This document shows, piece by piece, positions 14,275 through 34,834 of a stretch of 35,851 bases of DNA. Numbering within the stretch: the first letter of the stretch is position 1; every line of letters starts with the position of its first letter. The DNA is taken from the IMG/VR virus record IMGVR_UViG_3300042526_000184, positions 1 through 35,851 of that record; one strand, written 5' to 3'. The translations under genes were made by a program, and so were the position numbers. Source of the stretch: a virus. The notes under the pieces were generated by a model. It had not been told where the DNA came from. It ran no database searches and was given only the letters and a program-made list of their open reading frames with translations.

Positions 14275-14276
14275 TT

Positions 14277-21761: not shown

Positions 21762-21781
21762 TTGTTTCCTTTGTTTGTGTG

Positions 21782-21798
21782 TTTAACATGATATTAAA
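21782..21798 (-). repeat. 17-bp palindrome copy 2 (TTTAACATGATATTAAA)
   Basis: This is a good match to the consensus. It lies 21 nt upstream of the start at 21761 and directly follows the GC-rich hairpin 21799-21832 on the minus strand. Confidence 0.8.
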
Positions 21799-21832
21799 TG
21801 GGTGGTGGAGCAGGGGGCTACCCCACCACCCA
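21799..21832 (-). terminator. GC-rich hairpin after the DUF932 gene
   Basis: TGGGTGGTGG (21799-21808) pairs perfectly with CCACCACCCA (21823-21832) around a 14-nt loop. On the minus strand it follows the DUF932 stop at 21838, and the TTTAA of palindrome copy 2 follows at once, so it ends one unit where the next begins. Confidence 0.6.
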
Positions 21833-21837
21833 CAGCA

Positions 21838-22839
21838 TTATGCGAAGGTACTAACAGCCTTCGCAGTAAGTGGGAAGTCATCACGAAGCAGGCGACGAAT
21901 CGCAGCAACGTCACGACTATTGTTGCGGACAACTGAACGATGTTGTTCATAGCCTTGGACAGCCATGACAGCATCAAACGCTGTCTCTCCACGAGTCTTC
22001 TCGTTCCACTCGGCAACGATACCATCCCAAGCAGTGTCATACATAGTCTGACTACGACCAGCCTCAGATGGACGTGACCCAATGACAGCAGGGATGACAC
22101 GCTGTGTGAGCATGCGCTTGTCTGCCTCAATATCTAGAAGGCGATTGATCTCAAGATCAAACTGATCAAACGAAGTCATCATCCCTTCCAAAGATTTGAT
22201 TGCAGCAGTAGCGATATCACTAGCGTTACGAGTGTGACGAATAGTGAACCCAGTGTCAGCACTCCAAGGAGTGAACGTGTTCTGACAGACCCAAAGGTTA
22301 CTCATGTACTTGACAGCGAGAGGATAAGTCCCATCGTGTGAAGTGTAGAGACCCATGTAGCGAGTCATCTTGTCAGTCTCGTCACCATCCTTACGGACAA
22401 CCTTGACCATGTCACGGAACTCAATGACAAGGAAGATGACCTGACCACCCCATAGTTCTACAGCAGACACAGGCTGTGCATCACCACGTGCTTGCATGAT
22501 GACATCTGTATACTGACCGAGCACTTCGTTCTGCACAGTTCCGTACTTGTTGCTGTGCATACCGAGGATGCTTTGCTTGTCGGTGCGGATGATTGCAGCA
22601 TGTTGATCAGCGTTCTGCTGAGTTAAACCTAACTCTGCAAGAGTACGCTTCTCTACCTGCCAGTTCAATCCAGCAGTGACTAAGAGTTCGTCGCCAGTAC
22701 GAACGCTGTCACTGATCTGAGTCTTCAGACCAACAACCTCACCCTTACTGTTGACACTCTCACCTAGTCCATGCCACGGTGCGACACGGAACGCTCCGCT
22801 AGTCACACCACCCAGCACACCATTTTGATCGTAACCCAT
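21838..22839 (-). CDS. DUF932 (phage/plasmid-like, TIGR03299 type) protein (333 aa)
   Basis: The N-terminus has the family hallmark APWHGLG (near residues 20-26) followed by the TAGLNWQVEKRTL strand. The HSNKYGTVQNEVLGQYTDVI segment corresponds to the family motif around Tyr-x-x-Val/Ile-x-N. Length and order agree with DUF932 proteins, which are widespread in phages and plasmids, especially of actinobacteria, and of unknown biochemical role. AAAGGAG precedes ATG 22839 and palindrome copy 3 stands 28 nt upstream. It is a single-gene unit: a palindrome lies upstream, and a hairpin plus the next palindrome lie downstream. Confidence 0.85.
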   Translation of the reverse strand: MGYDQNGVLGGVTSGAFRVAPWHGLGESVNSKGEVVGLKTQISDSVRTGDELLVTAGLNWQVEKRTLAELGLTQQNADQHAAIIRTDKQSILGMHSNKYGTVQNEVLGQYTDVIMQARGDAQPVSAVELWGGQVIFLVIEFRDMVKVVRKDGDETDKMTRYMGLYTSHDGTYPLAVKYMSNLWVCQNTFTPWSADTGFTIRHTRNASDIATAAIKSLEGMMTSFDQFDLEINRLLDIEADKRMLTQRVIPAVIGSRPSEAGRSQTMYDTAWDGIVAEWNEKTRGETAFDAVMAVQGYEQHRSVVRNNSRDVAAIRRLLRDDFPLTAKAVSTFA

Positions 22840-22866
22840 TTTAATATTCTCCTTTTGTTGTTGTTG

Positions 22867-22883
22867 TTTAATATGGTATTAAA
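22867..22883 (-). repeat. 17-bp palindrome copy 3 (TTTAATATGGTATTAAA)
   Basis: It lies between the stop at 22888 and the start at 22839, 28 nt before the DUF932 start codon. Confidence 0.8.
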
Positions 22884-22887
22884 TTAC

Positions 22888-23559
22888 TTACTTGCTTTTC
22901 TTCGCAACAGGGTCAGTGCTGGGGAACAACTCATGGTTCTTCATCCAACGCTTAACCCATTCTTTACGACTCTGATTTAATACGTTGACATTCAAGCCAA
23001 CGCACTCGTCAACAGTATCTCTATCTAATGCCGACTGACCCTTACGATACCTGTAGGGGGCGAACACCAGTGTATCATCACAGAATGCACCTTCCACCTC
23101 TAATAAGGTAATTGCTTCGTCATGATCCTTGAACCAATATGAGACACGAAGATTGTCGTACTCTTCTAGTTGAGGATAGTTCTCAATGTCTGCAGGGAAC
23201 TCACCAATGCCAGCAAGACAATCAGTGATCTCGCCAGTATCTGATTCAAGTTTACTAACCTTGACAAACTCACGCTCAACACCATCAAGTTCTGCGATGA
23301 ACGAATTCATCTTATTAGTGATGTGAACAAACGTAGGTCCGAAAAGTTTTTCGTAGAAGTTTGCACGATAGTAGAACTCTTCTGCATGATCTAGATCTTT
23401 GATGCACCCAATGTCAGTCACCATGCACAGGAATACGATTGCTTTGTATTCAACCTTGAGGTCTCTCACTGCAGGCTCACCAACGTACGGTGAATCATAA
23501 TCTTTATAGAGATCATCTTCAGGGATGATCGTGTTCTTGAAGTTGTATGTTAAAGCCAT
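22888..23559 (-). CDS. Acidic protein of unknown function (223 aa)
   Basis: AAGGAG precedes ATG 23559, and palindrome copy 4 lies 19 nt upstream. The protein is soluble and acidic, with an N-terminal DDLYKDYDSPYVGEP stretch, a helical centre around 60-95 (DHAEEFYYRANFYEKLFG) and a basic C-terminal tail (NQSRKEWVKRWMKNHE, then KKSK). No catalytic motif, membrane segment or known domain was recognised. It is a single-gene unit in the palindrome-marked accessory region. Confidence 0.65.
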   Translation of the reverse strand: MALTYNFKNTIIPEDDLYKDYDSPYVGEPAVRDLKVEYKAIVFLCMVTDIGCIKDLDHAEEFYYRANFYEKLFGPTFVHITNKMNSFIAELDGVEREFVKVSKLESDTGEITDCLAGIGEFPADIENYPQLEEYDNLRVSYWFKDHDEAITLLEVEGAFCDDTLVFAPYRYRKGQSALDRDTVDECVGLNVNVLNQSRKEWVKRWMKNHELFPSTDPVAKKSK

Positions 23560-23577
23560 TCTGTTTTCTCCTTGTTG

Positions 23578-23594
23578 TTTAATATGATGTTAAA
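23578..23594 (-). repeat. 17-bp palindrome copy 4 (TTTAATATGATGTTAAA)
   Basis: It begins directly after the stop at 23595 (minus-strand order) and lies 19 nt before the start at 23559. Confidence 0.8.
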
Positions 23595-23831
23595 TTATTT
23601 ACTTGTTAGATAGGTAATAAAAGAATACCTGCTTGTATCTGTAGTCCCATTCTTGAGGGCGTACGCCGTAACATGATACATGTTTGCGGTATCATCCCAC
23701 CAAATGTTGATGTCGTAATCTTCATAACATCCCCACCAGTCATCACCGAATTCGTGATAGGAATTCTCATGCTCATCCATGGCGTAATCAAGTATTGCAC
23801 TTCGTATATGTGGTTTGATTTGTAAATCCAT
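23595..23831 (-). CDS. Small acidic, aromatic-rich protein (78 aa)
   Basis: AAAGGAAA precedes ATG 23831, and palindrome copy 5 lies 16 nt upstream. The chain has many Asp, Trp and Tyr (DDWWGCYEDYDINIWWDD) followed by beta-strand-like segments (YHVTAYALKNG, RYSFITYLTS). It is probably a compact alpha/beta protein. Acidic and aromatic composition like this is common in phage proteins that bind host factors, but the function is unknown. Confidence 0.65.
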   Translation of the reverse strand: MDLQIKPHIRSAILDYAMDEHENSYHEFGDDWWGCYEDYDINIWWDDTANMYHVTAYALKNGTTDTSRYSFITYLTSK

Positions 23832-23846
23832 TTTGTTTTCCTTTCG

Positions 23847-23863
23847 TTTAATATGATGTTAAG
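23847..23863 (-). repeat. 17-bp palindrome copy 5 (last base changed)
   Basis: TTTAATATGATGTTAAG differs from the consensus only in its last base. It lies 16 nt before the start at 23831 and just after the hairpin 23871-23910 in minus-strand order. Confidence 0.75.
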
Positions 23864-23870
23864 TTGGGGT

Positions 23871-23910
23871 TGTGTGGGATGGGGAGATTCAATAATCCCC
23901 ACCCCACACA
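23871..23910 (-). terminator. Long GC-rich hairpin (15-bp stem, one G-U pair on RNA)
   Basis: Arms 23871-23885 and 23896-23910 are complementary at 14 of 15 positions, and the odd pair is G-U in the minus-strand RNA. The loop is 10 nt. It directly follows the minus-strand stop at 23917 and is followed by palindrome copy 5. No T-run follows. Confidence 0.65.
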
Positions 23911-23916
23911 GAACTA

Positions 23917-24513
23917 TTAGCGACGACTGACCTCAACGTCAGGATACGAATTGTAATCCCACTCAATGTCAACGATGCCATCATGATCATCTGAATCAAG
24001 AGCATCCAAGTCTTCAGGATTATCGTTAAGACGATCCTCAAGGAATTCACGTACGTCACTCTCAACCATGCTTGCTGGGGCTTTGCATGTCACAGATACC
24101 CTATGAGTCAGAACGACCTCAAACTCAAACTCATGCTCAACAACATGAGGTGATTCCAAAGTACCCTCCTCAATTAAAGGTGCGACAAGATCCCAAATAC
24201 TATCGTCTGCATCTAATGCTTCAGACTCAGCGATACGATTAATGAACTCCTGAAAGATCGCAGTAATACGATTCATCTCAATGTAACGCTTACCTGACTG
24301 ATCACTAACAAACTTGTAGTGATCAGTACGATTCTTGATATCGTACATGTTGATAGCAGGAATGTCAGTACCCTCAACGAACTCGGTACTACCATTCACA
24401 ATCCACGCCCCAAGTTGGTAATCCTTGAAGCGATCATCATGATTGATCTCTAAAATTGTGAACTTATTCATTTGAACGTGCTCCTGTTCTGTTGTAATTT
24501 CTTCTGAACTCAT
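23917..24513 (-). CDS. Acidic protein of unknown function (198 aa)
   Basis: AAGGAG stands before ATG 24513, and palindrome copy 6 lies 39 nt upstream. The protein is strongly acidic throughout. It has an N-terminal beta-like segment (KFTILEINHDDRFKDYQLGA), a central helix (ITAIFQEFINRIAESEAL) and a C-terminal half with EHEFEFEVVLTHRVSVTC followed by an Asp-rich DNPEDLDALDSDDHDG stretch. The first 14 residues before MNKFTILE may be dispensable, because that internal Met is an alternative start. No family is recognised. Confidence 0.65.
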   Translation of the reverse strand: MSSEEITTEQEHVQMNKFTILEINHDDRFKDYQLGAWIVNGSTEFVEGTDIPAINMYDIKNRTDHYKFVSDQSGKRYIEMNRITAIFQEFINRIAESEALDADDSIWDLVAPLIEEGTLESPHVVEHEFEFEVVLTHRVSVTCKAPASMVESDVREFLEDRLNDNPEDLDALDSDDHDGIVDIEWDYNSYPDVEVSRR

Positions 24514-24551
24514 TTTAATTTTCTCCTTGTTTGTTTGGTTTATTGTTTGTA

Positions 24552-24568
24552 TTTAACATGATGTTAAA
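24552..24568 (-). repeat. 17-bp palindrome copy 6 (TTTAACATGATGTTAAA)
   Basis: It lies between the stop at 24570 and the start at 24513. Confidence 0.8.
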
Positions 24569-24569
24569 C

Positions 24570-25460
24570 TCAGTAGACATCAACGACAAAAGTACTGTCG
24601 CCAATTAACTGCCGAGCCTTGCCCTTAGCGGACAGGTCACCAATGACTGCACCCTCAGAGAGCATCCATTCATCAGTCTTGTCAGCATCAACAAAGGACA
24701 CGCCAAAGTCCTTGATGCCAAAGAATTCTCGCAAAGCCTCCACGTCAATAGGTTGACCCTTTTTACGTGACGTGACCACAGCAACCTTACCTCCACGTTC
24801 AAGATGACGACGCACCTTATCCACGTCAGAGTTCTCATTCCAAGAGTAACAGTAATTGAAATTACCGTAAATCTCATCAGAGTTATGCGCTATACGAGCA
24901 GGGTTCTTAGTGTAACCGTAAACGGTAACATGCGGAAGATCACCCAAACTAGTCAGACACTTATGCCAAGACAGATCAGAGTTAACATCAGGTCTGAACA
25001 AGATGTCACCATGTTTAAGCACAGCCCTACCTAACTCCCACCCAAGACGATAAGCAGCCACCGATGGATACTTACCCCAAAGATGAGTCCTCCACACCCA
25101 AGCCTTACGTACACTGTCGTAGCGACCATTACCGTTATTGAGGACACACACTTTGGTACAGTCGCCACGCCATGCACACAGTTCATAGTCACTGATGTCA
25201 GCATGAGCCAGTGTCATCCCGTATGTCGCTACCTTGCTACCGTTTAACTTCATGTTAAATTGAGGCGCAGTCAAAAGATCTGCGACGACAGGGTTAAAGC
25301 CTTGCTCCTGACGTACCTCTTTGATTAGATCATTGCCATAGACAGATCTACCACCCATGACAGCATCACTGTAGCCGTACTCTAAATATGAATTTGTATA
25401 CTCTTCGCTGTTGCGAAGAATTTGAGATAACTTAGGCTTGATAGCCACTTGAATTTCCAC
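24570..25460 (-). CDS. gp88-like (DUF7227-type) phage protein (296 aa)
   Basis: The start is GTG 25460, with a strong GGAGG 5-6 nt upstream and palindrome copy 8 lying 22 nt upstream. The key motif is CAWRGDCTKVCVLNNGNG near residues 95-112, a CxxxxxC-x3-C pattern followed by Asn/Gly. Next come WVWRTHLWGKYPSV and an FRPDVNSDLSW segment. Mycobacteriophage gp88-like and cyanophage relatives share this Cys motif plus an RPNVNSD-type motif and have no proven function. The C-terminal part has strand-helix units such as GKVAVVTSRKKGQ. A palindrome copy lies inside this gene at 25243-25259. The family call is by motif memory. Confidence 0.6.
   Translation of the reverse strand: MEIQVAIKPKLSQILRNSEEYTNSYLEYGYSDAVMGGRSVYGNDLIKEVRQEQGFNPVVADLLTAPQFNMKLNGSKVATYGMTLAHADISDYELCAWRGDCTKVCVLNNGNGRYDSVRKAWVWRTHLWGKYPSVAAYRLGWELGRAVLKHGDILFRPDVNSDLSWHKCLTSLGDLPHVTVYGYTKNPARIAHNSDEIYGNFNYCYSWNENSDVDKVRRHLERGGKVAVVTSRKKGQPIDVEALREFFGIKDFGVSFVDADKTDEWMLSEGAVIGDLSAKGKARQLIGDSTFVVDVY
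25243..25259 (-). repeat. Palindrome copy 7, inside a gene (TTTAACTTCATGTTAAA)
   Basis: Perfect 6-bp arms with a changed centre lie within the gp88-like gene. It is the only copy inside a confident gene and may be a weak internal operator or chance. Confidence 0.5.
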
Positions 25461-25481
25461 TTAAACCTCCTCAGGTTTTCA

Positions 25482-25498
25482 TTTAATATGATGTTAAA
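25482..25498 (-). repeat. 17-bp palindrome copy 8 (TTTAATATGATGTTAAA)
   Basis: It lies 22 nt before the GTG start at 25460 and contains the stop codon of the upstream gene (25494-25496). Confidence 0.8.
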
Positions 25499-25688
25499 CG
25501 CTTACAACTAAATAGCATCCCTTGCGATAACGCTCAACTTGAACGCTCGCAAATTTAGAGTCTACCTCAATAGTACGTAACATAAACCATGTACCATTTA
25601 TTTTAGTCCGACGCTCACCAGCGACGACAGAGGAGAATCCGTAGTCGTACGCTGATGGAGCGTTAGTCAAGAACCTAGAAAGGCTCAT
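25494..25688 (-). CDS. Small protein of unknown function (64 aa)
   Basis: ATG 25688 overlaps the end of the 53-aa membrane-protein gene by 14 nt; an in-frame Met at 25715 is an alternative. No clear Shine-Dalgarno sequence is present, so translation is probably coupled. The protein is small and basic with beta-like segments (RTKINGTWFMLRTIEVDS and ASVQVERYRKGCYLVVS). Its stop codon lies inside palindrome copy 8. Confidence 0.55.
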   Translation of the reverse strand: MSLSRFLTNAPSAYDYGFSSVVAGERRTKINGTWFMLRTIEVDSKFASVQVERYRKGCYLVVSV

Positions 25689-25836
25689 TATCGTCAGAGA
25701 ACCATTGAGGCTCATAGTCCCGAAAGAACCTATATTCCTCACCAGCACCGACACTTCTACCCACCTCATAGGCGAACCATATGAGACCTACGATCAGTAA
25801 TGACGCTAGACCTAATAGAACATATGGATACATCAT
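25675..25836 (-). CDS. Small single-pass membrane protein (53 aa)
   Basis: ATG 25836 overlaps the upstream stop (ATGA), and the frame ends at TAG 25675-25677. Residues about 5-23 (YVLLGLASLLIVGLIWFAY) form one membrane helix near the N-terminus. The rest is a polar, acidic and aromatic tail (EEYRFFRDYEPQWFSDDNE). The tail probably faces the cytoplasm. Superinfection exclusion or a lysis accessory role is possible, but function is unknown. Confidence 0.65.
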   Translation of the reverse strand: MMYPYVLLGLASLLIVGLIWFAYEVGRSVGAGEEYRFFRDYEPQWFSDDNEPF

Positions 25837-26087
25837 AGTGTATACCCCAAGCCACGGTCAACGATTGAACGTAAACGTCGCTCTTCAGGGTCAGTGACTT
25901 CCGAATCCACCCCATAGTTAGGGATATCCCACACTTCACGATGATGCTGAGCAATAGCCTGAGCCTGCTCCTCATTATGACAAGTCATCTGAAAACGATG
26001 CGAATCAGAACTATCACCAGTAGGTGACCTGAACCAAAGCCATACGACTTTGCCCTCGTTATATGCTGCAACTAATGAACCTTTCAT
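25833..26087 (-). CDS. Small protein of unknown function (84 aa)
   Basis: AAGGAG precedes ATG 26087 and palindrome copy 9 lies 20 nt upstream, making this the first of three overlapping genes. The N-terminal half looks beta-rich (GKVVWLWFRSPTGD, RFQMTCHNEEQAQA), followed by a His-containing helix (IAQHHREVWDI). The C-terminus is charged. No known family is recognised. Confidence 0.65.
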   Translation of the reverse strand: MKGSLVAAYNEGKVVWLWFRSPTGDSSDSHRFQMTCHNEEQAQAIAQHHREVWDIPNYGVDSEVTDPEERRLRSIVDRGLGYTL

Positions 26088-26106
26088 GCTTACTCCTTTG
26101 TCGTTG

Positions 26107-26123
26107 TTTAATATGATGTTAAA
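26107..26123 (-). repeat. 17-bp palindrome copy 9 (TTTAATATGATGTTAAA)
   Basis: It lies 20 nt before the start at 26087, at the end of a roughly 230-nt stretch without a confident gene. Confidence 0.8.
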
Positions 26124-26138
26124 TGTATTTTGGGGCAG

Positions 26139-26166
26139 GCAGTTTTACGTCATGCCTAGGACGCTT
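26139..26166. repeat. 28-bp imperfect direct repeat, copy A
   Basis: The segment starts GCAGTTTTACGTCATG and matches copy B at 26257-26284 in 24 of 28 positions. Both lie in the gap between palindromes 9 and 10. No function is known. Confidence 0.6.
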
Positions 26167-26256
26167 GACCCAGTGGATAATAGGCAACCAATTTATGAGA
26201 CCTCCGACCCCTACTATTCTACTAATATATTCGGTCCATGCTCTATCAAGATTCAA

Positions 26257-26284
26257 GCAGTTTCACGTCATGCTCAGGACGTTT
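26257..26284. repeat. 28-bp imperfect direct repeat, copy B
   Basis: The segment starts GCAGTTTCACGTCATG and lies 118 bp from copy A. Each copy contains a small CGTC...GACG inverted repeat that might be a binding site. Confidence 0.6.
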
Positions 26285-26345
26285 AGCAATTTCGCAATAT
26301 TTTCGATGCCCATGCATGAACGTATCCATGCACTTCGTGCTCCAT
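26283..26345 (-). CDS. Possible 20-aa peptide after palindrome 10
   Basis: ATG 26345 opens a 20-codon frame (MEHEVHGYVHAWASKILRNC) ending at TAA 26283-26285. It lies 12 nt after palindrome copy 10, a spacing like that of the confident genes. The ribosome site is weak (an AGG about 11 nt upstream). The stretch could instead be a non-coding RNA or an empty remnant. The rest of 26124-26282 holds no gene that I can see. Confidence 0.25.
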   Translation of the reverse strand: MEHEVHGYVHAWASKILRNC

Positions 26346-26356
26346 TGCCAAACCTA

Positions 26357-26373
26357 TTTAAGATGATGTTAAA
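26357..26373 (-). repeat. 17-bp palindrome copy 10 (TTTAAGATGATGTTAAA)
   Basis: It has one change in the left arm. It lies directly after the 33-aa gene and heads a stretch with no confident gene. Confidence 0.7.
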
Positions 26374-26378
26374 TGGAC

Positions 26379-26480
26379 TCAGGCAATACGCTCAGCCCAA
26401 ATAAAGCCCTTGGACTCAATCTGATCCTCAACATAGTCAAGCCATGACTCATCAATATAATCGTAATCGTGCTCAGACAT
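26379..26480 (-). CDS. Tiny acidic protein (33 aa)
   Basis: ATG 26480 has a strong AAAGGAG about 7 nt upstream, and the frame ends at TGA 26379-26381. The peptide is very acidic and aromatic (MSEHDYDYIDESWLDYVEDQ) and then slightly basic. The ribosome site and the palindromes on both sides make it credible despite its size. Acidic mini-proteins of phages often bind and block host proteins, but nothing specific can be said here. Confidence 0.6.
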   Translation of the reverse strand: MSEHDYDYIDESWLDYVEDQIESKGFIWAERIA

Positions 26481-26508
26481 AGTCTGCTCCTTTTAATGTT
26501 ATGTAATA

Positions 26509-26522
26509 GCGCACTATTGCGC
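26509..26522. repeat. Short hairpin in a structured leader
   Basis: GCGCA (26509-26513) pairs with TGCGC (26518-26522) around a 4-nt loop. It lies about 29 nt upstream of the 33-aa gene and is the third of three consecutive hairpins on the minus strand. Confidence 0.5.
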
Positions 26523-26532
26523 AGTAGACTAG

Positions 26533-26548
26533 CCTCCACCGAAGGAGG
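26533..26548. repeat. Short GC-rich hairpin in a structured leader
   Basis: CCTCC (26533-26537) pairs with GGAGG (26544-26548) around a 6-nt loop. It is the second of three consecutive hairpins. Confidence 0.5.
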
Positions 26549-26550
26549 TA

Positions 26551-26581
26551 GTTACCGTTTAACACCATGTTAAACGGTAAC
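26551..26581 (-). repeat. Extended palindrome copy 11 (13-bp perfect arms)
   Basis: GTTACCGTTTAAC (26551-26563) and GTTAAACGGTAAC (26569-26581) are perfect complements around ACCAT. The inner 17 bp (26558-26574) are the shared palindrome with a changed centre. The outer 7 bp on each side are unique to this copy, so it may act as both operator and hairpin. It lies between the stop at 26597 and the start at 26480. Confidence 0.75.
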
Positions 26582-26596
26582 CTAGCCTCAGTCAAA

Positions 26597-27175
26597 TTAA
26601 GCCTTGACAAGGGCTTTAGTCGTACTCTTAGAGATCTCAGCCTCAAGCCATAGGGCAAGCGCCTTCTTCTCCTCCAACGACCATTTAGCGACAGATTCGC
26701 AAGTATGGGCAAATTTATCCACAGTAGAATTCACTGTGACATCCTTTTCACCATCGCTTGAAACTGTGACAGTCTTGGGCGCTGACTTCTTCGCCTGAGC
26801 CTGAGCCTTAGCCTCATCAGCCTTTTTCTTGGCTTCAGGACTAATAGCGCATAGAGCCGATGGAAGACTAGGGTACTTCACAAGTACGGCAGCAACATCC
26901 TTATAGGACTTCATGCGGTCTTCCTTGTGAGCCTTAGCCAATTCCCGAAGAACACGAGAAGCGAGTGACATCTGAGCCCCAAAGGACTTAGGCGACACGG
27001 TCTTCTTCATGATCGCAGGAAGCAACTTGAAAGCCTCGTCACACGTAGTATCAGCAGGCTTAGCGTCTGCCAACAAGACGTAGACTTCGCTACGAGTACG
27101 TTCGGCTTCAGTGAAGCGTTCAGCGTTCTCAGTTGCCACTTGGGCGAAGAGCGAGTTTGATCGGATAGTAGTCAT
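26597..27175 (-). CDS. Helical protein of unknown function (192 aa)
   Basis: ATG 27175 with an AGGAC site is chosen. An in-frame Met at 27229 would put palindrome copy 12 inside the gene, unlike almost all other copies. The protein is helical: residues 1-110 are mixed helices (ENAERFTEAERTRSEVYVLL), 111-135 are Lys/Ala-rich (AKKKADEAKAQAQAKKSA), and 160-192 form an amphipathic helix with a basic end. It has no signal or membrane segment and no known domain. As the first palindrome-controlled gene on this side, it may be expressed early. Confidence 0.65.
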   Translation of the reverse strand: MTTIRSNSLFAQVATENAERFTEAERTRSEVYVLLADAKPADTTCDEAFKLLPAIMKKTVSPKSFGAQMSLASRVLRELAKAHKEDRMKSYKDVAAVLVKYPSLPSALCAISPEAKKKADEAKAQAQAKKSAPKTVTVSSDGEKDVTVNSTVDKFAHTCESVAKWSLEEKKALALWLEAEISKSTTKALVKA

Positions 27176-27200
27176 GATGACCGTCCTATTCTGTTTGTAA

Positions 27201-27217
27201 TTTAATATGATATTAAA
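27201..27217 (-). repeat. 17-bp palindrome copy 12 (TTTAATATGATATTAAA)
   Basis: It lies 26 nt before the start at 27175 and is the right-most copy of the family. Confidence 0.8.
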
Positions 27218-27528
27218 TGGAGCAAGCATATGGTTATGCCACTCACCTACTCCGATTCATCATACCTTTCTTGTACCTCGTTTGTTCAGTACACTAGTTC
27301 CGTGGCGGACGGAATCGGGAAACAGTCCTAGTTCTATTGGCGATCCGTGTGCATGTGCGTGTGCGTGTGCATGTGGAGGGGTGCATGGGGGGGTGTACGT
27401 ACCTATTCGCCAAAGAGTCCCTCAGGGCGTAGCCAAATCGTGATAGGTTTATATACTAGTGTGACCGTAGTCACAGTGGGGGTATTGTGTGGTGTTCAGC
27501 GACTGTCGTTGCAGGTAGGAATATGTTT
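27218..27528. other. Non-coding stretch with alternating pyrimidine-purine tract
   Basis: About 310 bases hold no credible gene on either strand. A 30-bp tract at 27346-27375 alternates pyrimidine and purine without a break (CG, TG and CA steps only). It is followed by G-runs (GGAGGGG, then GGGGGGG) and a GTACGTAC palindrome at 27395-27402. A small inverted repeat, GTGAC/GTCAC, lies at 27461-27474. It is G-rich compared with the neighbouring gaps. It could be a replication origin, a control region or an area of unusual DNA shape. Confidence 0.5.
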
Positions 27529-27801
27529 TTAATGTATTTTACGGGATGGCATGTGCTCACAGAAGTAGGTGACGCAGTTCTTGAGAACTGCTGTCCCTGC
27601 GCTGTAGTTCCCTGTGGCTAGTTCGTAAGTGCAGGCGACCCAGTAGTACTGGTCGTTTTCTGCTACGAGGTAGCCTACTGCTGAGAGGACACATGGTTCG
27701 TGTTTGGCATCGGGTTCGTGCCAGTCGTCTCCCATGCTGTAGTGGTCTTCCCAAAAGATTTCTACTAGGGGTGGTATTTGTGGTGCTTCTTTTTTTACCA
27801 T
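27529..27801 (-). CDS. Small protein of unknown function (90 aa)
   Basis: ATG 27801 overlaps the end of the upstream gene by 7 nt, with no clear ribosome site of its own. The chain is acidic at first (VEIFWEDHYSMGDDWHEPDA) and then beta-rich with Tyr/Trp and three Cys (QYYWVACTYELATG, NCVTYFCEH). It might be a small globular protein, perhaps metal-binding through the Cys and His. No family is recognised. Confidence 0.65.
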   Translation of the reverse strand: MVKKEAPQIPPLVEIFWEDHYSMGDDWHEPDAKHEPCVLSAVGYLVAENDQYYWVACTYELATGNYSAGTAVLKNCVTYFCEHMPSRKIH

Positions 27802-28085
27802 TTTACTTTGTCTGCCCAGTACGCTGCGGACATTGGTCCTTTAGCAATGTTGGATGCGTGACGTGCCTTGAAGGAGGCACGTTTCTTGGTCATGCGATCA
27901 GATTCTCCTGCTTTGGGTTTCCCTGCTGTGGATGCACCTTGTTCACCAAAGCGGATAGTTTTAACTTGACCACCTGATTTAGCCACGACAATATGAGACT
28001 TCTTAGGGTGGTCGGGTGTGCGTTTGGGTTTGTTGTAACCTGCTACACCTGCCCTAGCGAGTTTGGGGTCTTTGCTAGATGCCAT
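27795..28085 (-). CDS. Small basic phage protein (96 aa)
   Basis: ATG 28085 overlaps the upstream TAA by one base. The protein is rich in Lys, Ala, Gly and Ser, with a Pro/Lys-rich start (NKPKRTPDHPKKSH). Its C-terminus, RASFKARHASNIAKGPMSAA then YWADKVKW, recurs in small proteins of cyanophages and other marine phages as far as I remember. It has no membrane segment. The basic charge fits DNA or RNA binding, or a minor virion component. The exact role is unknown. Confidence 0.7.
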   Translation of the reverse strand: MASSKDPKLARAGVAGYNKPKRTPDHPKKSHIVVAKSGGQVKTIRFGEQGASTAGKPKAGESDRMTKKRASFKARHASNIAKGPMSAAYWADKVKW

Positions 28086-28198
28086 TAGTACTTCTTTGTC
28101 TTAGATTGTACCTTCATACCTGTTTTGGCTGCTGCCTTTTTGGCTGCAGCCTTACCCTTGGCAGTATAAGGGAATTTCTTGTTTCCTACTTGTGGCAT
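28085..28198 (-). CDS. Tiny Lys/Ala-rich basic protein (37 aa)
   Basis: ATG 28198 has AGGAG 6-7 nt upstream, and TAA 28085-28087 overlaps the next start. The sequence begins MPQVGNKKFPYTAKGKAAAK and continues with a Lys/Ala helix. Very similar openings are known to me from tiny proteins of marine phages and cyanophages, where they have no assigned function. It is probably nucleic-acid-binding or virion-associated. It is the first gene of the minus-strand unit that faces the divergent control region. Confidence 0.7.
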   Translation of the reverse strand: MPQVGNKKFPYTAKGKAAAKKAAAKTGMKVQSKTKKY

Positions 28199-28216
28199 AT
28201 ACGCTCCTGTCGTCGC

Positions 28217-28230
28217 AACTAGTACTAGTT
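28217..28230. repeat. 14-bp perfect palindrome AACTAGTACTAGTT
   Basis: A perfect self-complementary 14-mer, 19 nt upstream of the 28198 start. It is a possible operator for the leftward small-gene unit. Confidence 0.6.
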
Positions 28231-28234
28231 ATAG

Positions 28235-28270
28235 ATCAACGAGTGCGTCCCTGCGGTAGCACTCGTTGAT
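28235..28270. repeat. Perfect 12-bp inverted repeat with 12-nt loop
   Basis: ATCAACGAGTGC (28235-28246) and GCACTCGTTGAT (28259-28270) are perfect complements. It lies in the middle of the divergent region. No T-run follows, so it may be a two-way transcription barrier, an operator or an RNA leader hairpin of the leftward unit. Confidence 0.7.
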
Positions 28271-28291
28271 AACCATAAGCCCCTAACCTAA

Positions 28292-28323
28292 GCGTTACCC
28301 GTTACCTCACTAAACAGGTAACG
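28292..28323. promoter_or_regulatory. Cluster of three GTAACG boxes with an 8-bp inverted repeat
   Basis: On the minus strand two boxes, GTAACGG (28305-28299) and GTAACGC (28298-28292), lie side by side. On the plus strand one box starts at 28318. CGTTACCT (28300-28307) and AGGTAACG (28316-28323) form a perfect inverted repeat with an 8-nt centre. The two leftward boxes could serve the 28198 unit and the rightward one the packaging genes. Confidence 0.55.
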
Positions 28324-28342
28324 AAGTTGCCTGTAATTGATG
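28318..28342 (+). promoter_or_regulatory. GTAACGA box, 22 nt before ATG 28340
   Basis: GTAACGA at 28318-28324 lies 22 nt before ATG 28340, which is directly preceded by TTG 28337. There is no ribosome site in between. This box heads the whole rightward packaging/head operon, which is the strongest argument that it is a promoter. Confidence 0.65.
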
Positions 28343-28768
28343 AGTATTGAAGAAAATGTGCTGGATGCGCGCCAAGAATCTTACATAGGTTGGCTATGTA
28401 CACCTCCTTCTGAACGTGTCCCTTCAAGCAAAGAAAAGTATGCCGACTCCATCGGAGTGAACGTTGTCACTTTGCGTCGTTGGGAGAAGAAGGAAGTCTT
28501 TAAGAAGACTTGGGCTTCCAAGGTAGAGGACATTCAGGGCTCTCCTGAGCGTTCGCAGCGCCTTCTTGATACTTTGTACAATCAGGCGATTGGCGGCGAC
28601 ATACGGGCAGCACAACTGTATCTGCAAGCCACCAATCGGATGTCTCCTCCTACGCTGACAGTTAAGTCTGAGAAGTCAACGGCTGAACTATCTGACAAGG
28701 AGTTAGATGATCTGATTTCTGCTGTTGCTTCTCGTGAGCAGGAGTCACGCAAACTTCGTATTGTATGA
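28340..28768 (+). CDS. terS: Terminase small subunit (142 aa)
   Basis: Residues about 10-60 form a helix-turn-helix of the phBC6A51/terminase-small type (KEKYADSIGVNVVTLRRWEK, then KTWASKVEDI). A helical oligomerisation part with LYNQAIGGDIRAAQLYLQ follows, then a charged tail (TAELSDKELDDLISAVAS). It should bind the packaging site and hand DNA to the large terminase. The large subunit follows after one tiny zinc-ribbon gene. ATG 28340 is chosen; TTG 28337 is directly before it. No Shine-Dalgarno site is present, and a GTAACGA box stands 22 nt upstream instead. Confidence 0.85.
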   Translation: MSIEENVLDARQESYIGWLCTPPSERVPSSKEKYADSIGVNVVTLRRWEKKEVFKKTWASKVEDIQGSPERSQRLLDTLYNQAIGGDIRAAQLYLQATNRMSPPTLTVKSEKSTAELSDKELDDLISAVASREQESRKLRIV

Positions 28769-28896
28769 CCGAGTTGGTTGAATGCCCTGTTTGTGGTGAA
28801 GAGTATCCACCTGCAGCATGTAAGTGGGAATGTCCAGTGTGTGGTCAGGAAGATAATCCCGAGCCACTTAAGATGAGGAAAAATGGATCTGAGTGA
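28765..28896 (+). CDS. Mini zinc-ribbon protein between the terminase genes (43 aa)
   Basis: ATG 28765 overlaps the small-terminase stop (ATGA), and the TGA at 28894-28896 lies 14 nt inside the large-terminase gene. Two CPVCG knuckles (C7-C10 and C23-C26) plus C19 make a clear zinc ribbon of rubredoxin-like spacing. The tail is Lys/Arg-containing. It may assist packaging by binding DNA or terminase, or act on host transcription. Overlap with both terminase genes indicates co-translation. Confidence 0.75.
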   Translation: MTELVECPVCGEEYPPAACKWECPVCGQEDNPEPLKMRKNGSE

Positions 28897-30472
28897 ACTT
28901 CTCAATGAGAAGGAATGGCGCAAGTGCAAGGGTGGCGAAGACGCTTCTGTAGATGATTTAGTTGAAGCGTTCAAATACTTTTGTGATAACTACTGGCATA
29001 TTAAACATCCTGAGCGTGGTCGTATCAAGTTTGATATGCGTGAGGCACAGATTGAAACTATTCGTGCTTGGCTTTCTAATAGATACAGTGTAGTTCTTAA
29101 AGCACGTCAGATTGGGTTTTCTACTCTTGGTGCAGCGTACGCTTTTTGGTTGACGTTCTTTTGGTCTGATAGGTTTGTGGTCATGCTTTCTCGTACTGAA
29201 CGAGAGGCTGCCAAGTTGCTGCAGAAGTCTAAGTATGGTTTTAAATTCATCCCTCTATGGATGAAAGAACGTGGACCTGACATCACGTCTGACAACCAAT
29301 TAAAGATGACGTTCTCTAACGAGTCCTCTATTGAATCATTACCTTCAGGTAATGATCCTGCCCGTGGTGAATCCGTGTATCTCGTTATCGTTGACGAAAT
29401 GGCGTTCTTACCCAACTCCGAAGAGGCGTGGGCTTCCATTGAACCTATTGCTGACGTTGGTGGTCGTGTCATCTGTCTAAGTACGGCTAACGGATCAGGT
29501 AACTTCTTCCACCAAATGTGGGTAGGATCACAAAACAAAACAAACTTGTTTAAAGGTATTTTTTGGCCTTGGTCTGCTGGTGACCGTGACGAACAATGGT
29601 ATGAGTCAAAGTCTAAAACGATGCCTTCTTGGCAGTTGCACCAAGAATACCCTCGTAGCCCTGAAGAAGCGTTTATTAAATCAGGTAACCCCGTTTTTGA
29701 TATTGACATTTTGATGCAATATGAGATTGAAGAACCACAACGTGGATACTTGCACGTGACTGCCCGTAAACAGGCTGAATACAGAGAAACTCCTGATGGC
29801 GAGTTGGCTATTTGGGAAATGCCTGAACCTGATGGTATTTATGTTATTGGTGCTGACATTGCTGAAGGTCTAGGTCATGGGGACTATTCGTCGGCGCACG
29901 TCATTAATGCTCGTACAGACAATTTAGTAGCGCACTGGCATGGTCATATTGAACCTGACCTTTTTGGTGATGCCCTTTGCGAAATAGGATGGCTTTACAA
30001 TGGTGCTTTAATTGCTGTGGAAAACAACAACCACGGTTTAACCACTGTGAAGGCTATGCAACGATATGGCTACAAGAACATGTATCGTCAGCGTCGTTTG
30101 CAACAGCGCAACCCTGAACCTTCAGAGATTGTTGGTTGGCGTACTACAACTGCGTCAAAGCCTTTGGCTATTGACGAGTTGGCTGGGGGTATCCGAGACA
30201 ATGTTATTTACATTCCTTGTGAACGCACTATTGCAGAATTAAAGACATATGTTCGTAATGCTAATGGCAAGATGAATGGTTCTCCTCACGACGACAGAGT
30301 GATGTCTTTGGCTATCACATATCAAATGTTGAAGTATGTGTGGCTTCCTGAGTACAGACCCGAGATAGCGTCACCAAAATATAGTCTTCACTGGTTTGAA
30401 CGTTTTATACAATATGGTGACGAAGGATTAAAAACTGTACCATTGGGCGCATATAACGCACGAAAGAAGTAG
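28883..30472 (+). CDS. terL: Terminase large subunit (529 aa)
   Basis: The ATPase half has the packaging-motor Walker A variant KARQIGFST at residues 73-81, Walker B VIVDEMAFL near 170, and a coupling motif LSTANG near 205. The nuclease half has the RNase-H-like acidic residues: D325 in GADIAEGLGHGD, E in ALIAVENNNHG near 377, and the HDDRVMSLA motif near 468. All are the expected catalytic positions, so the protein looks active. It cuts concatemeric DNA and drives it into the prohead through the portal. A GAGGA site precedes ATG 28883. Length is normal for the family. Confidence 0.95.
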   Translation: MDLSELLNEKEWRKCKGGEDASVDDLVEAFKYFCDNYWHIKHPERGRIKFDMREAQIETIRAWLSNRYSVVLKARQIGFSTLGAAYAFWLTFFWSDRFVVMLSRTEREAAKLLQKSKYGFKFIPLWMKERGPDITSDNQLKMTFSNESSIESLPSGNDPARGESVYLVIVDEMAFLPNSEEAWASIEPIADVGGRVICLSTANGSGNFFHQMWVGSQNKTNLFKGIFWPWSAGDRDEQWYESKSKTMPSWQLHQEYPRSPEEAFIKSGNPVFDIDILMQYEIEEPQRGYLHVTARKQAEYRETPDGELAIWEMPEPDGIYVIGADIAEGLGHGDYSSAHVINARTDNLVAHWHGHIEPDLFGDALCEIGWLYNGALIAVENNNHGLTTVKAMQRYGYKNMYRQRRLQQRNPEPSEIVGWRTTTASKPLAIDELAGGIRDNVIYIPCERTIAELKTYVRNANGKMNGSPHDDRVMSLAITYQMLKYVWLPEYRPEIASPKYSLHWFERFIQYGDEGLKTVPLGAYNARKK

Positions 30473-30497
30473 GTAACGATCCACTTATAGTGTGATG
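30473..30497 (+). promoter_or_regulatory. GTAACGA box, 22 nt before ATG 30495
   Basis: TAGGTAACGAT starts in the stop codon of the large terminase. GTAACGA 30473-30479 lies 22 nt before ATG 30495, which is preceded by GTG 30492 (TATAGTGTGATGG). There is no ribosome site. Confidence 0.6.
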
Positions 30498-30722
30498 GGA
30501 TCTATTAACTGCGTAGAATGTGACAAACTATTCTCTTTTGACGTACTTCCACGTAGAGGTGCTGTCTGTTTTGGTTGTCACGTAAAAGGTATCCGTTTAG
30601 GGTTTGCTCATGGTAAAGAAGACTTCCATGGTCCAACCATTAAACAGCGTCAAGATGAACAAATGAGGCATGCTGCCAATGCTGGCATTAAAGCCGAACC
30701 TGTTGGGACTCGTTGGATCTAA
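30495..30722 (+). CDS. Small zinc-ribbon protein (75 aa)
   Basis: INCVECDK gives C6 and C9, and AVCFGCHVKG gives C25 and C28, a classic treble-clef or zinc-ribbon spacing. The rest is basic and polar (HGPTIKQRQDEQMRHAANAG). Similar short zinc proteins occur beside head genes of many actinobacteriophages. It may be a structural adaptor or nucleic-acid binder. There is no Shine-Dalgarno site. GTG 30492 and ATG 30495 are tandem possible starts behind a GTAACGA box. The next gene starts directly after its stop. Confidence 0.7.
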   Translation: MGSINCVECDKLFSFDVLPRRGAVCFGCHVKGIRLGFAHGKEDFHGPTIKQRQDEQMRHAANAGIKAEPVGTRWI

Positions 30723-30917
30723 ATGTATTGGATCACCCCTATTGTCGTCGCACTTATTGGTGGTCCTTTAATGTTGGCTTTAAAAAGGTACGACACTCGC
30801 AATACAAGAGAACATGGCGAGAACTATAAAGTTCTTCGCCGTATTGAAGACAAAGTTGACCACATAGATGATCGTTTGGACGATCATGTTGAATACCACT
30901 TGAAAGAGGGATTATGA
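30723..30917 (+). CDS. Membrane-anchored coiled-coil protein, DUF2746/holin-accessory-like (64 aa)
   Basis: Residues 3-20 (WITPIVVALIGGPLMLAL) are one membrane helix, followed by a basic stop (KRYDTRNTREHGEN) and a heptad helix (RRIEDKVDHIDDRLDDHVEY). This is the layout of DUF2746-type proteins encoded beside holins in actinobacteriophages. It may control lysis timing or span the membrane as a partner of the holin encoded next. It starts right after the previous stop and overlaps the next start (ATGA). Confidence 0.7.
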   Translation: MYWITPIVVALIGGPLMLALKRYDTRNTREHGENYKVLRRIEDKVDHIDDRLDDHVEYHLKEGL

Positions 30918-31102
30918 AATATTCAGAATCAGCCAAGAAAGCAGTCGCAACATTCGTGTTTGCCTCAACAGGTATTCTTGTTGGTGGCGCTGTAGGCGGT
31001 CTAGAGATTTGGAAGACAGCCCTTTGGACTGGTGTTGGCGCACTCATCAACTTCGTTTATCGTGCGTCTGAAGAATACATTAATAGCATTGAAGGCGAGT
31101 AA
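30914..31102 (+). CDS. Holin-like protein, r1t type (62 aa)
   Basis: AGAGGG precedes ATG 30914. Two hydrophobic segments, about 11-31 (VATFVFASTGILVGGAVGGL) and 33-49 (WKTALWTGVGALINFVY), fit the two-helix r1t holin pattern with a W-K-T-A-L motif before helix two. The C-terminus is charged and acidic. Holins assemble in the inner membrane and open it at a set time so that the lysin reaches the wall. The likely lysin is the M15 peptidase at 14.3 kb, far from here unless the genome is circular. The family call is moderately sure. Confidence 0.65.
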   Translation: MKYSESAKKAVATFVFASTGILVGGAVGGLEIWKTALWTGVGALINFVYRASEEYINSIEGE

Positions 31103-31105
31103 TCA

Positions 31106-32944
31106 ATGGCTCGTCCTTCTAACTCTGAGGCACTTACTCGTTATCAAAAGAAGATTGCTATTACCAAACGTTGGCGACGTGAGGAAGAATACGACGATAC
31201 GTGGCGACGTTTGATTGACCTTTATCGTGGTCGCCATTACGAAGACATCTCTGACGAAGATCGTCTTTTGATCAACATCTCATTTTCTACGATTAACGTT
31301 ATCGCACCTAGTGTTGCTGTTAACTATCCTAAGATTGCGGTTAATGCCCGTCGCCCTGCTGATGCGCCTAAGGCGATCATCACTGAGGCTGTAATTAACT
31401 ATTGGTGGAAGCACTACAAAATACGTCCCGAATTCCGCAGGGCTGTAAAAGATTTCCTTATCGTCGGTCATGGCTGGTTGAAGTGTGGCTATCGTTATGT
31501 TGAGGAAGAGAACATCTCCGAAGAGGGGGATCATTCTGATCCTAATGTTGAGGGCAACGAAGTAACTCCATCTATTGTGATTGTTGAAGATCGTCCTTTT
31601 GTTGAGCGTGTATCACCATTTGATGTGTACGTTGATCCTGACGCTACTTCAATGCAAGATGCCCAGTGGATTGCGCATCGTATCCGTCGCTCATTGAAAG
31701 ATATCAAGAGCGATAAAAGGTACTCACGGGCTGCACGTGAAAACATTAATGCTACCTCGTGGGGTCGTTATAGTGAAGATCCAGCAAAACGTAAAGTTCA
31801 AGACACCGAAGAAGGCTATGTTGAAGTATGGGAATACTACGACATTGCTAAAAAAACAATGTGTGTTTTTGCTGAAGGTTCAGAACAGTTCTTGGTCAAG
31901 CCAATTGATATGCCGTACGCTTTCGGTCATCCTTTTGTGATGATCCGAAACTACGACATTCCTGACTATTTCTATCCCATGGGTGATCTTGAGGCTATTG
32001 AGCCGCTTCAACGTGAGTTGAATGCGACTCGTACTCAGATGATGAATCACCGTAAACGGTACTCACGTAAGTATTTGTTCAAGGAATCAGCATTTGATGC
32101 TGATGGTCGTGATGCACTTGAATCAGACTACGACAACGTTTTAGTTCCTGTATCGGGTGACGAGAACCTTAATAACGTTGTTGTGCCTTTCCCTGCTGTA
32201 GTTACTCCTCCTGAGTTCTATCGCCAGTCAGACATTATTGAAGGCGACATTCAAACTGTTTCAGGTGTATCTGAGTATCAGCGTGGTGGTGTTCCTGAGA
32301 TTCGTCGTACAGCGACAGAAGCAGCAATTGTTCAAGATGCTGCGAATGCTCGTGCTGCTGACAAGTTGGCTACCATTGAAGGTTCTATCGCTGAGGTGGC
32401 TTTCCGTCTTGTTGCTCTTGCTCAACAGTTTATGACTGGTGAGCAAGTTGCTCGTGTTGTTGGTCGTGATGGCGAACCTACATGGGTTACTTTTGAGCCT
32501 GAATATATTGCTGGAGAGTTTGACTTTGATGTTGAGGCTGGTTCTACAGCCCCAGTTAATGAGTCTTTCCGACGACAGATGGCATTGCAGATGGTTGACG
32601 CTATGTCGCCGTTTGCTGGCGCTGGTCTTATTAACATGCCTGCGCTTGCAGCGCATGTTCTGCAGTTTGGTTTTGGTATCAAGAACCCTGACCAGTTCAT
32701 TCAGCAAGCACCTCCTCCACCCGAAATGGGCGAAGGTATGCCACCTGAAATGGGTATGCCACCTCAAGGTGGTATGCCTATGCCTCCTGATGTGGGTGGT
32801 ATGACTTCGCAGGGTGCGCCTGCTGCAGGACCAGTTCCTGTTGCTCCTCCACCTTCAAGCCCTGATGCGCTTTCAGGTGTTGACCCTTCGGTGTTAGCGA
32901 TGCTTTCTTCTCGTATGGGCATGCAGTTACCTAACACCATGTAA
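31106..32944 (+). CDS. Portal protein (612 aa)
   Basis: Position directly after the terminase region and before scaffold and capsid, together with length and composition, mark this as the portal. The core has an N-terminal helical start (YQKKIAITKRWRREEEYDDT), a stem-like region near 285-330 (REFNAT-type helix: LQRELNATRTQMMNHRKRYS) and a TATEAAIVQDAANA helix near 405. The last about 85 residues are Pro/Met/Gly-rich and probably disordered. The dodecameric portal is the DNA gate and the seed for capsid assembly. The P22/SU10-like size and the adaptor gene fit a short-tailed phage. The ribosome site is weak (GGCGAG). Confidence 0.9.
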   Translation: MARPSNSEALTRYQKKIAITKRWRREEEYDDTWRRLIDLYRGRHYEDISDEDRLLINISFSTINVIAPSVAVNYPKIAVNARRPADAPKAIITEAVINYWWKHYKIRPEFRRAVKDFLIVGHGWLKCGYRYVEEENISEEGDHSDPNVEGNEVTPSIVIVEDRPFVERVSPFDVYVDPDATSMQDAQWIAHRIRRSLKDIKSDKRYSRAARENINATSWGRYSEDPAKRKVQDTEEGYVEVWEYYDIAKKTMCVFAEGSEQFLVKPIDMPYAFGHPFVMIRNYDIPDYFYPMGDLEAIEPLQRELNATRTQMMNHRKRYSRKYLFKESAFDADGRDALESDYDNVLVPVSGDENLNNVVVPFPAVVTPPEFYRQSDIIEGDIQTVSGVSEYQRGGVPEIRRTATEAAIVQDAANARAADKLATIEGSIAEVAFRLVALAQQFMTGEQVARVVGRDGEPTWVTFEPEYIAGEFDFDVEAGSTAPVNESFRRQMALQMVDAMSPFAGAGLINMPALAAHVLQFGFGIKNPDQFIQQAPPPPEMGEGMPPEMGMPPQGGMPMPPDVGGMTSQGAPAAGPVPVAPPPSSPDALSGVDPSVLAMLSSRMGMQLPNTM

Positions 32945-32963
32945 CGATATGTTTGTATCTATA
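32941..32963 (+). promoter_or_regulatory. GTAACGA box before the scaffold/capsid genes
   Basis: GTAACGA at 32941-32947 spans the portal stop codon. No ATG lies 22 nt downstream; instead a 33-nt leader with AAGGAG follows before GTG 32996. By analogy with the other boxes an mRNA would start near 32963. Confidence 0.5.
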
Positions 32964-32995
32964 GAGCAACCATTTAGGACTCTAAGGAGATACAG

Positions 32996-33769
32996 GTGAC
33001 AGACACCTTTGAAGATAGCCTTGGCGCAGACCCCATTGTTGATGGACAAGTTGAAGATCAGGGATTAGCCGAACTAGATGCACCAGTTCTAGACCTAAGC
33101 GAATACAGTGACCATTACGTTACTGTAAAAGTTGATGGCGAAGAAGTACGTGTGCCTCTATCTGAGGCTGTTGCTGGCTATTCACGTCAAGCGGATTATA
33201 CCCGTAAGACGCAAGAGTTGGCATCGCAAAAGCAAGAACTCCAATGGGCTTCTGCTATACGGCAAGCACTTGAAAGTGATCCTGCTTCAACACTTGATTT
33301 ATTGTCAAATCACTATGGTATTAGCCGTAGGGATGCGCAACAGATGGTTGAGGATGATCCGTTTTTAACGGATTTTGGGATTGAAGATCCAGTTGATAAA
33401 CGTCTCCAAGAGATTGATAGACGAGTATCGGCTTTTGAACAGGTGCAGGCACAGCAGAGACTTGAAGAAGAGATCTCGCGTTTGCAAACCAAATATGGTG
33501 AAGATTTTGATCCTCAAGAAGTTGTATCCGCTGCCATCGGGCAGGGGAATACGAATCTTGAAGCAGTCTTTAAGCAGGTTGCTTTTGACCGTGTTAGTGC
33601 TAGGCGTTCAGCAGAAACTGAACGTGCCACTAAGGCGACTGAAGCAAAACGTGCAGCGTCTGTTGTTTCAGGTGCTACATCTGCTAGGACTGCAAAGGAT
33701 GAGGTCGGACCTGTAAAAACAATCGCTGACGCTTGGGCTGCTGCAAAACGGCAACACGGTGTCTCTTAA
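32996..33769 (+). CDS. Scaffolding protein (257 aa)
   Basis: GTG 32996 follows a clear AAGGAG. The protein is acidic at the N-terminus (DTFEDSLGADPIVDGQVEDQ). It then has the common scaffold motif VPLSEAVAGYSRQADYTRKT near residues 55-73, followed by a long charged helix with coiled-coil character (QEIDRRVSAFEQVQAQQRLE). The C-terminal 50 residues are Ala/Arg/Lys-rich and end in ADAWAAAKRQHG. Scaffolds guide coat assembly and leave the prohead before DNA fills it. The next gene is the coat protein. No protease domain is present. Confidence 0.85.
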   Translation: MTDTFEDSLGADPIVDGQVEDQGLAELDAPVLDLSEYSDHYVTVKVDGEEVRVPLSEAVAGYSRQADYTRKTQELASQKQELQWASAIRQALESDPASTLDLLSNHYGISRRDAQQMVEDDPFLTDFGIEDPVDKRLQEIDRRVSAFEQVQAQQRLEEEISRLQTKYGEDFDPQEVVSAAIGQGNTNLEAVFKQVAFDRVSARRSAETERATKATEAKRAASVVSGATSARTAKDEVGPVKTIADAWAAAKRQHGVS

Positions 33770-33789
33770 ACCTTAAAGGGGTAATTATT

Positions 33790-34728: not shown

Positions 34729-34752
34729 GTTTTTCCGACAAGGAATACAGAG

Positions 34753-34778
34753 AACCCACCCTTCGGGGTGGGTTTTTT
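34753..34778 (+). terminator. Strong rho-independent terminator after the capsid gene
   Basis: AACCCACCC (34753-34761) pairs perfectly with GGGTGGGTT (34766-34774) around a TTCG tetraloop, and the T-run 34773-34778 ends the element. A GTAACGA box follows 11 nt later. Confidence 0.92.
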
Positions 34779-34785
34779 GTTGTTA

Positions 34786-34811
34786 TAGGTAACGATTATT
34801 TAGTGTTATAG
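34786..34811 (+). promoter_or_regulatory. TAGGTAACGAT box directly after the capsid terminator
   Basis: The undecamer TAGGTAACGAT (34786-34796) is identical at 30470 and 35249. It is followed by TTTAGTGTTATAGG, and a leader with AGGGAG leads to ATG 34835. Its place right after a terminator is where a promoter is needed. An mRNA start near 34811 is predicted by analogy. Confidence 0.65.
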
Positions 34812-34834
34812 GAATCTATTTTTAGGGAGATATA

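Follow-up and report, generated by a model that had tools for sequence, protein, structure and literature searches.

Positions 28199-28339 of the window (the whole stretch of DNA analysed, a viral record 35,851 bases long and classed as linear) are a real, conserved and divergent late control region, and the spacing, recurrence and conservation of its signals suggest that it is probably a divergent pair of phage-specific late promoters combined with the 5' leader of the leftward transcript. Both promoters would have the form GTAACG-N14-T[A/G]^R, where the caret precedes the predicted +1. Rightward transcription would start at the ATG of the small terminase gene terS or one base ahead of it and give a leaderless or near-leaderless mRNA, presumably translated as such. 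Leftward transcription would start at GGGG (28283) and yield a leader of 80 nt that carries a conserved hairpin and a Shine-Dalgarno (SD) site, followed by interchangeable small genes. Five other late sites would fire from the same promoter class, and a phage factor would recognise the GTAACG box in trans, most likely on the host RNA polymerase, the candidate being a sigma-region-4-like protein. The preliminary description of this DNA had proposed the main switch of late expression; this idea survives in the sharper form of a divergent promoter pair, the class of which recurs at other late genes. If correct, the promoters would represent an additional class in a common group of uncultivated phages, whose operons could then be read from sequence.

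Comparison with the relative G001 showed that the window is a circularly permuted genome with about 170 bases missing at the joint. The rightward late genes begin with terS (28340), include terL, portal, scaffold and capsid, and continue over the joint as far as 14744, while leftward genes start at 28198 and continue downward; thus 28199-28339 is a divergent junction, and the gene layout agrees with the earlier placement of the region between leftward small basic genes and a rightward packaging operon. The portal protein matches the SU10 and P22 portal families, and the nearest annotated record is the spring-water podovirus MW202803 (TerL 51%). For the host, homology yielded bacterial-genome relatives of TerL with no more than 36% identity, together with GP88-family and weak actinobacteriophage matches only. 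To obtain relatives, 80 TerL loci were fetched, and a pattern search for the conserved block CCCCTAWCNNNARCGTTACNCGTTAC returned 53 stretches of viral contigs; in each of the 20 loci listed among them, terS follows the block directly. Relatives with the same gene order and an unrelated gap at this place, which the preliminary description had named as evidence against the region, were sought, and the outcome favoured the region.

Table 1. Features of the divergent control region and of related sites, with positions and strand in the window. The caret precedes the predicted +1; distances are counted from the first G of GTAACG.
Feature	Positions	Strand	Remarks
Candidate recognition factor: sigma-70 region-4-like domain fused to DUF1599-like domain	15574-16344	-	
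Box of gene 4788	4766-4771	+	ATG at 22
First leftward gene, 37-aa small basic protein	28086-28198	-	Unrelated genes replace it in relatives
GCGACGAC and SD site AGGAG of leftward leader	28204-28216	-	Conserved
14-bp palindrome	28217-28230	none	Unconserved; judged chance
Leftward leader hairpin	28235-28270	-	12-bp stem, internal loop, 2-bp inner helix, CAG loop
Predicted leftward start TA^GGGG	28280-28285	-	Predicted +1 = 28283; invariant in alignments
Leftward box 2, GTAACG	28293-28298	-	7-bp step from box 1; degenerate in L023
Leftward box 1, GTAACG	28300-28305	-	22 nt upstream of GGGG at 28283
Hairpin-forming repeat CAGGTAAC-GAA-GTTGCCTG	28315-28333	+	Encloses rightward box; absent from the preliminary description
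Rightward terS box, GTAACG	28318-28323	+	GGTAACGA at 28317-28324; predicted +1 at or next to A of ATG 28340 (22 nt)
terS, small terminase	28340-28768	+	phrog_2538, E 2.4e-05; own ATG = predicted +1
Box of Cys-rich gene 30495-30722	30473-30478	+	ATG at 22
Box before scaffold leader TATA^GAGCAACC	32941-32946	+	Predicted +1 at 23; SD-led gene 32996
Terminator-like hairpin and T run, 3' of major capsid gene	34753-34779	+	Seen in sequence
Box directly behind capsid-gene terminator	34789-34794	+	TATA^GGAATC at 22; SD-led gene 34835
Box of gene 35274	35252-35257	+	ATG at 22

GTAACG occurs 27 times in the window against 12.1 expected, a count reached in none of 100 shuffles, and each putatively functional box lies 22-23 nt upstream of an ATG or of a TA^G step. 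The longer pattern GGTAACGA-N13-TRATG has four matches in the window (terS, the Cys-rich gene 30495, 35274 and 4788) and none in 100 shuffles. Among 74 distinct copies of GGTAACGA in the loci fetched by then, an ATG-started ORF of at least 45 codons followed at 23 nt in 36 and at 24 nt in 8 (44/74), counted from the first G of GGTAACGA to the A of the ATG, a scale on which 22 nt counted from GTAACG becomes 23. Thirteen control words gave mostly 0 (range 0-5) at 23/24 nt; only words closely resembling the box scored at 23 (TGTAACGA 5, AGTAACGA 3, GGTAACGC 2, CGTAACGA 1), and the reverse complement of GGTAACGA gave 5 at 24 nt. Fifty-nine ATG sites of four named gene classes, picked by box and ATG alone, have T at -2 without exception (59/59) and a purine at -1 in 56. 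Three further classes of site have no ATG at this distance: TATA^GG stands at 22 behind the capsid terminator (10/10), TTA^GGGG or ATA^GGGG at 22 at the leftward site (21/21) and TATA^GAGC or TGTA^GAGC at 22-23 at the scaffold site (12/12), agreement that is partly chosen, since the +1 of these classes was placed by the TAG step. In an unbiased scan of 141 distinct GTAACG copies from seven records, T[AG][AG] was found at offset 20 in 43, most other offsets giving about 10; the 29 at offset 23 reflect the TGG of ATGG.

Promoters are favoured by the class of site that lies directly behind a terminator, by the non-ATG sites with their shared spacing, by the scarcity of other promoter matches and by the narrow gap between the divergent boxes of L023, L041 and L139. 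A scan listed the stem at 34753-34779 for the minus strand only. As the preliminary description had it, GTAACG boxes face both ways within the control region. Leftward box 1 keeps its distance of 22 in 21/21 distinct sequences and is retained in L023, where box 2 is lost; box 2 is probably auxiliary. The conserved leader of the scaffold site (32964-32995), with GAGCAACC-N-GGACTC next to the SD site, is kept even in distant clades and is possibly a second leader hairpin.

All symmetric elements of the preliminary description are present at the coordinates given there, yet its four nested elements do not form one nested device. The 14-bp palindrome AACTAGTACTAGTT is the only one of its class in the window against 2.4 expected under a first-order Markov model, which is not significant at window scale; we rejected it as an operator, because its number is expected by chance and relatives lose it while the hairpin and the boxes stay. 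The 8-bp inverted repeat CGTTACCT/AGGTAACG (28300-28307/28316-28323) belongs to a class with 68 members in the window versus 11.2 expected and is simply two facing GTAACG boxes. By contrast, the window has perfect 12-bp inverted repeats (gap 3-20) in two places, at 28235 and in a cluster at 26551-26553, against 0.0 expected, and the first of them (28235-28246/28259-28270, loop 12 nt) is a real hairpin, located in the 5' leader predicted for the leftward transcript. Among 11 distinct sequences whose loop is 12 nt long, 94.7% of the cells of the stem are paired, and pairing is kept despite double-sided changes in 10 of 12 pairs. The covariation score was 0.826, compared with 0.179 +/- 0.043 for shuffled and at most 0.103 for slid alignments, and the inner two-pair helix covaries as well (C-G 6, G-C 5). 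L109, L112, L121 and L129, which have other loop lengths, were kept out of the alignment; their stem folds too. These compensatory changes mark the element as a structured RNA leader. Its assignment to the leftward RNA rests on its position, with the predicted leftward start on one side and the SD site of that transcript on the other; the G-U pairs of the stem do not decide the strand. Since the stem sequence drifts freely, a sequence-specific duplex-binding protein was rejected as the reason for it. A mini-ORF across the hairpin (ATG 28276, leftward) was also discarded, as relatives do not keep its start (by eye), and a tRNA was sought and not found.

A model of the leader found one match per region-holding record with E below 1e-8. 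No Rfam family scored above its gathering threshold; the best hit, at E 1.1 and elsewhere, is attributed to chance. Relatives differ in the gene to the left of the leader, the exchange border being the SD site, and keep leader, boxes and terS. The covarying leader would be an RNA element without an above-gathering Rfam match, acting as a portable unit for the expression of interchangeable genes. In G006 (L104 12470-12532) the model matched a second time and more weakly (E 3.5e-4), in an early-region gap with two stem-loops. GCGACGAC is also found upstream of the SD site of gene 14277 (14245-14277), which may be coincidence.

The box differs between lineages: distant clades carry another word, altered at all sites of one phage together. 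Among the 78 loci examined, 47 carry the scaffold site together with the one that follows terL, and in 46 of these the two hexamers are the same (GTAACG 30, GGAACA 10, AGAACG 5, GTAACA 1), with L038, L042, L044 and L076, which lie beyond the automatic spacing limits, judged by eye to agree; the sites of L058 are discordant. In L023 the scaffold, terS and 35274-type sites read GTAACA and the leftward box GTAACG. Since the word changes in concert at unrelated genes, it is likely to have a trans-acting reader. For this role the region-4-like protein encoded at 15574-16344 is the best candidate, judged by its fold and its occurrence. Its domain stands alone, without the fusion, in other clades; Pfam Sigma70_r4 was matched by 10/10 aligned members, their profile matches FliA at 4e-9, the predicted fold (pLDDT 76) matches sigma factors (best E 0.007), and the helix-turn-helix of sigma region 4 is present. 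The protein was found in 13 of 14 box-bearing records (the window, G001-G006, G012 by profile, and G013-G017) and not found in the box-bearing 19-kb fragment G018. In MW202803 a profile search gave none at E up to 1, and its late strand has no GTAACG-type box at late starts. The recognition helix reads SKPHAWR in the window group (GTAACG), SKTHAWR and NKVNAWR in the GTAACG records G017 and G014, KSHAWRK with GGAACA, and KSHTWYH or KSVAWYA with AGAACG; shared ancestry alone could give such co-variation of helix with dialect and of box with region 4.

The sites do not resemble promoters of the common sigma classes. No sigma-70-like consensus match was found in the control region, 3 such promoters were found in 27500-35851 against 12.1 expected, and TANNNT at -12 to -7, which in sigma-70-type promoters accompanies a -35 hexamer some 17 bp further upstream, was present at 0/102 sites. 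Sigma-54 promoters (-24/-12) were rejected because GC at -12 is unconserved (by eye). ECF sigma -35 elements contain AAC, and AAC is present in all four box words. A box at -22 to -17 fits neither the -35 nor the -10 position of sigma factors, so the usual geometry of region 4 provides no explanation. It is a tentative possibility that a region-4-only sigma makes the host polymerase use a compact promoter (with its word at -22 to -17, T at -2, without -10) whose start is the initiation codon, that structural-gene mRNAs are leaderless, and that word and recognition helix co-evolved into at least four dialects. Were this so, a sigma fragment would define a new geometry of promoter, and protein-DNA specificity could be tested on ready-made pairs supplied by the natural dialects. 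A split or recoded polymerase in the overlapping leftward ORFs 15574-20799 was considered and dismissed, as these are normal genes such as RusA, primase, DnaB and a PD-(D/E)XK nuclease.

Against promoters stands the folding of the rightward boxes, which lie in hairpins beyond chance expectation, whereas a leaderless promoter needs none; SD-like words near a few boxed genes (4788; L044, L112) also count against them. At the rightward box relatives have different stems with the box in the loop. Rightward boxes with their own flanks had a mean fold energy of -6.81 kcal/mol compared with -4.45 +/- 0.35 with permuted 3' flanks, and 0/1000 permutations were as low, in a test of 35 representatives of 57 sites, some of them mutually related. 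These hairpins may be a second control layer or a DNA structure. They also agree with a reading in which the box acts at the RNA level, a protein or the ribosome reading GGUAACGA, often in a hairpin loop, and controlling the ATG 22 nt downstream. The fixed ATG distance in four gene families, the complementarity of the flanks, the constant loop GAGGTAACGA within variable stems and, in MW202803, a different hairpin placed 10 nt ahead of the start codons of terS and the Cys-rich gene all fit such a signal, but it leaves unexplained why sites with long SD leaders keep the same spacing to TA^G, it does not account for the site right behind the terminator or for the leftward site without ATG, and in L023, L041 and L139 the two starts are about 60-75 bp apart, which leaves no space for another promoter. 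On balance we regard an RNA-level signal as unlikely.

The preliminary description had also suggested a packaging start (cos/pac) next to terS, in which case the boxes would be small-terminase sites. The region is directly upstream of terS in all aligned relatives, and a P22-like portal fits headful packaging, so that a pac site is possible; contig ends, however, are scattered round the genome, with 1 of 40 relatives (L001-L040 of the 80 TerL loci) ending inside the region (L035), and the breakpoints of the window and of six long relatives all differ, the six relatives running through the region. As these are ends of metagenome contigs and not of virions, the scattered breaks argue only weakly against cos here. 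Moreover, the boxes recur at other late genes, where a packaging start does not need them, and expression signals account for every conserved feature; the suggestion thus found no support and we consider it very improbable. Equally improbable is a DNA-hairpin promoter for an unrecognised phage polymerase, similar to that of the N4 virion polymerase: many boxes have hairpins and TATA^G at the leadered sites resembles phage-polymerase starts, but several sites (4788, 34789, leftward) have no hairpin and no RNA polymerase was matched among the window proteins scanned. The single-subunit RNA polymerase family PF00940 was matched in 0/7 records, a search in which control genomes gave no match either, and the 2211-aa virion protein was rejected as a polymerase, with no match and no motif found.

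The proposed late promoters share single features with known systems. T7-type late transcription repeats one promoter class many times along the late genes, with a terminator immediately behind the capsid gene and with dialects between relatives. A repeated putative late promoter class, a post-capsid terminator and dialects among relatives are likewise seen here, but no T7-like polymerase was seen, the box lies at -22 to -17 with an unconserved spacer, and in place of T7-type specificity bases at -12 to -5 the stretch from the box to -2 varies by site class (by eye). Late promoters of the jumbo phage AR9 are AACA-6N-T[A/G] with the last base as the start, in a phage that encodes multisubunit polymerases and has leaders of 26-491 nt (PMC5312081). 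The likeness is a phage-specific late promoter with an AAC-containing word at a fixed distance before a T[A/G] start; the sites described here differ from the AR9 type in having a spacer of 14 instead of 6 and another word, and belong to a 36-kb podovirus without multisubunit polymerase genes and with ATG at +1. The SAS of cluster K mycobacteriophages is GGGATAGGAGCCC, contains AGGAG and lies 3-8 nt before the ATG of non-structural genes, and RNA pairing of the ESAS repeats is not supported there (PMC3203893). Common to SAS/ESAS and the box is a short asymmetric word at a fixed distance before many starts, sometimes with inverted repeats; the box is distinct from SAS in its 22-nt distance, its word, the lack of an SD site, its late genes and its ATG-less sites. 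The late regulators RinA/Ltr of staphylococcal phages act at a single promoter that has a TATA box and direct repeats (PMC13123087). They resemble the proposed system in that a small phage protein from the early cluster activates the operon starting at the terminase gene, and differ in using one promoter compared with many here. Leaderless mRNAs in mycobacteria are the topic of PMC4633059. In the literature covered, which leaves out subscription papers, no phage promoter with GTAACG was found.

Other repeated elements were seen outside the control region and in the nearest annotated record. In MW202803 (L179, MW202803.1) the start-associated hairpin CCGTTTCTGACGGAAACGG lies 10 nt before the ATG of terS and of the Cys-rich gene, and variants of it are found at two more late genes (L179 positions 41422, 39204, 30027 and 23425). 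The near-palindrome TTTAACATCATATTAAA recurs on the leftward strand upstream of early leftward genes in 20799-27217, with copies before 20799, 21761, 22839, 23559, 23831, 24513, 25460, 26087 and others; its distance to SD site and start varies, and it is a candidate early operator or promoter element. A long inverted repeat between leftward genes, GTTACCGTTTAACA-tgg-TGTTAAACGGTAAC (26551-26590), combines the early palindrome with GGTAAC arms.
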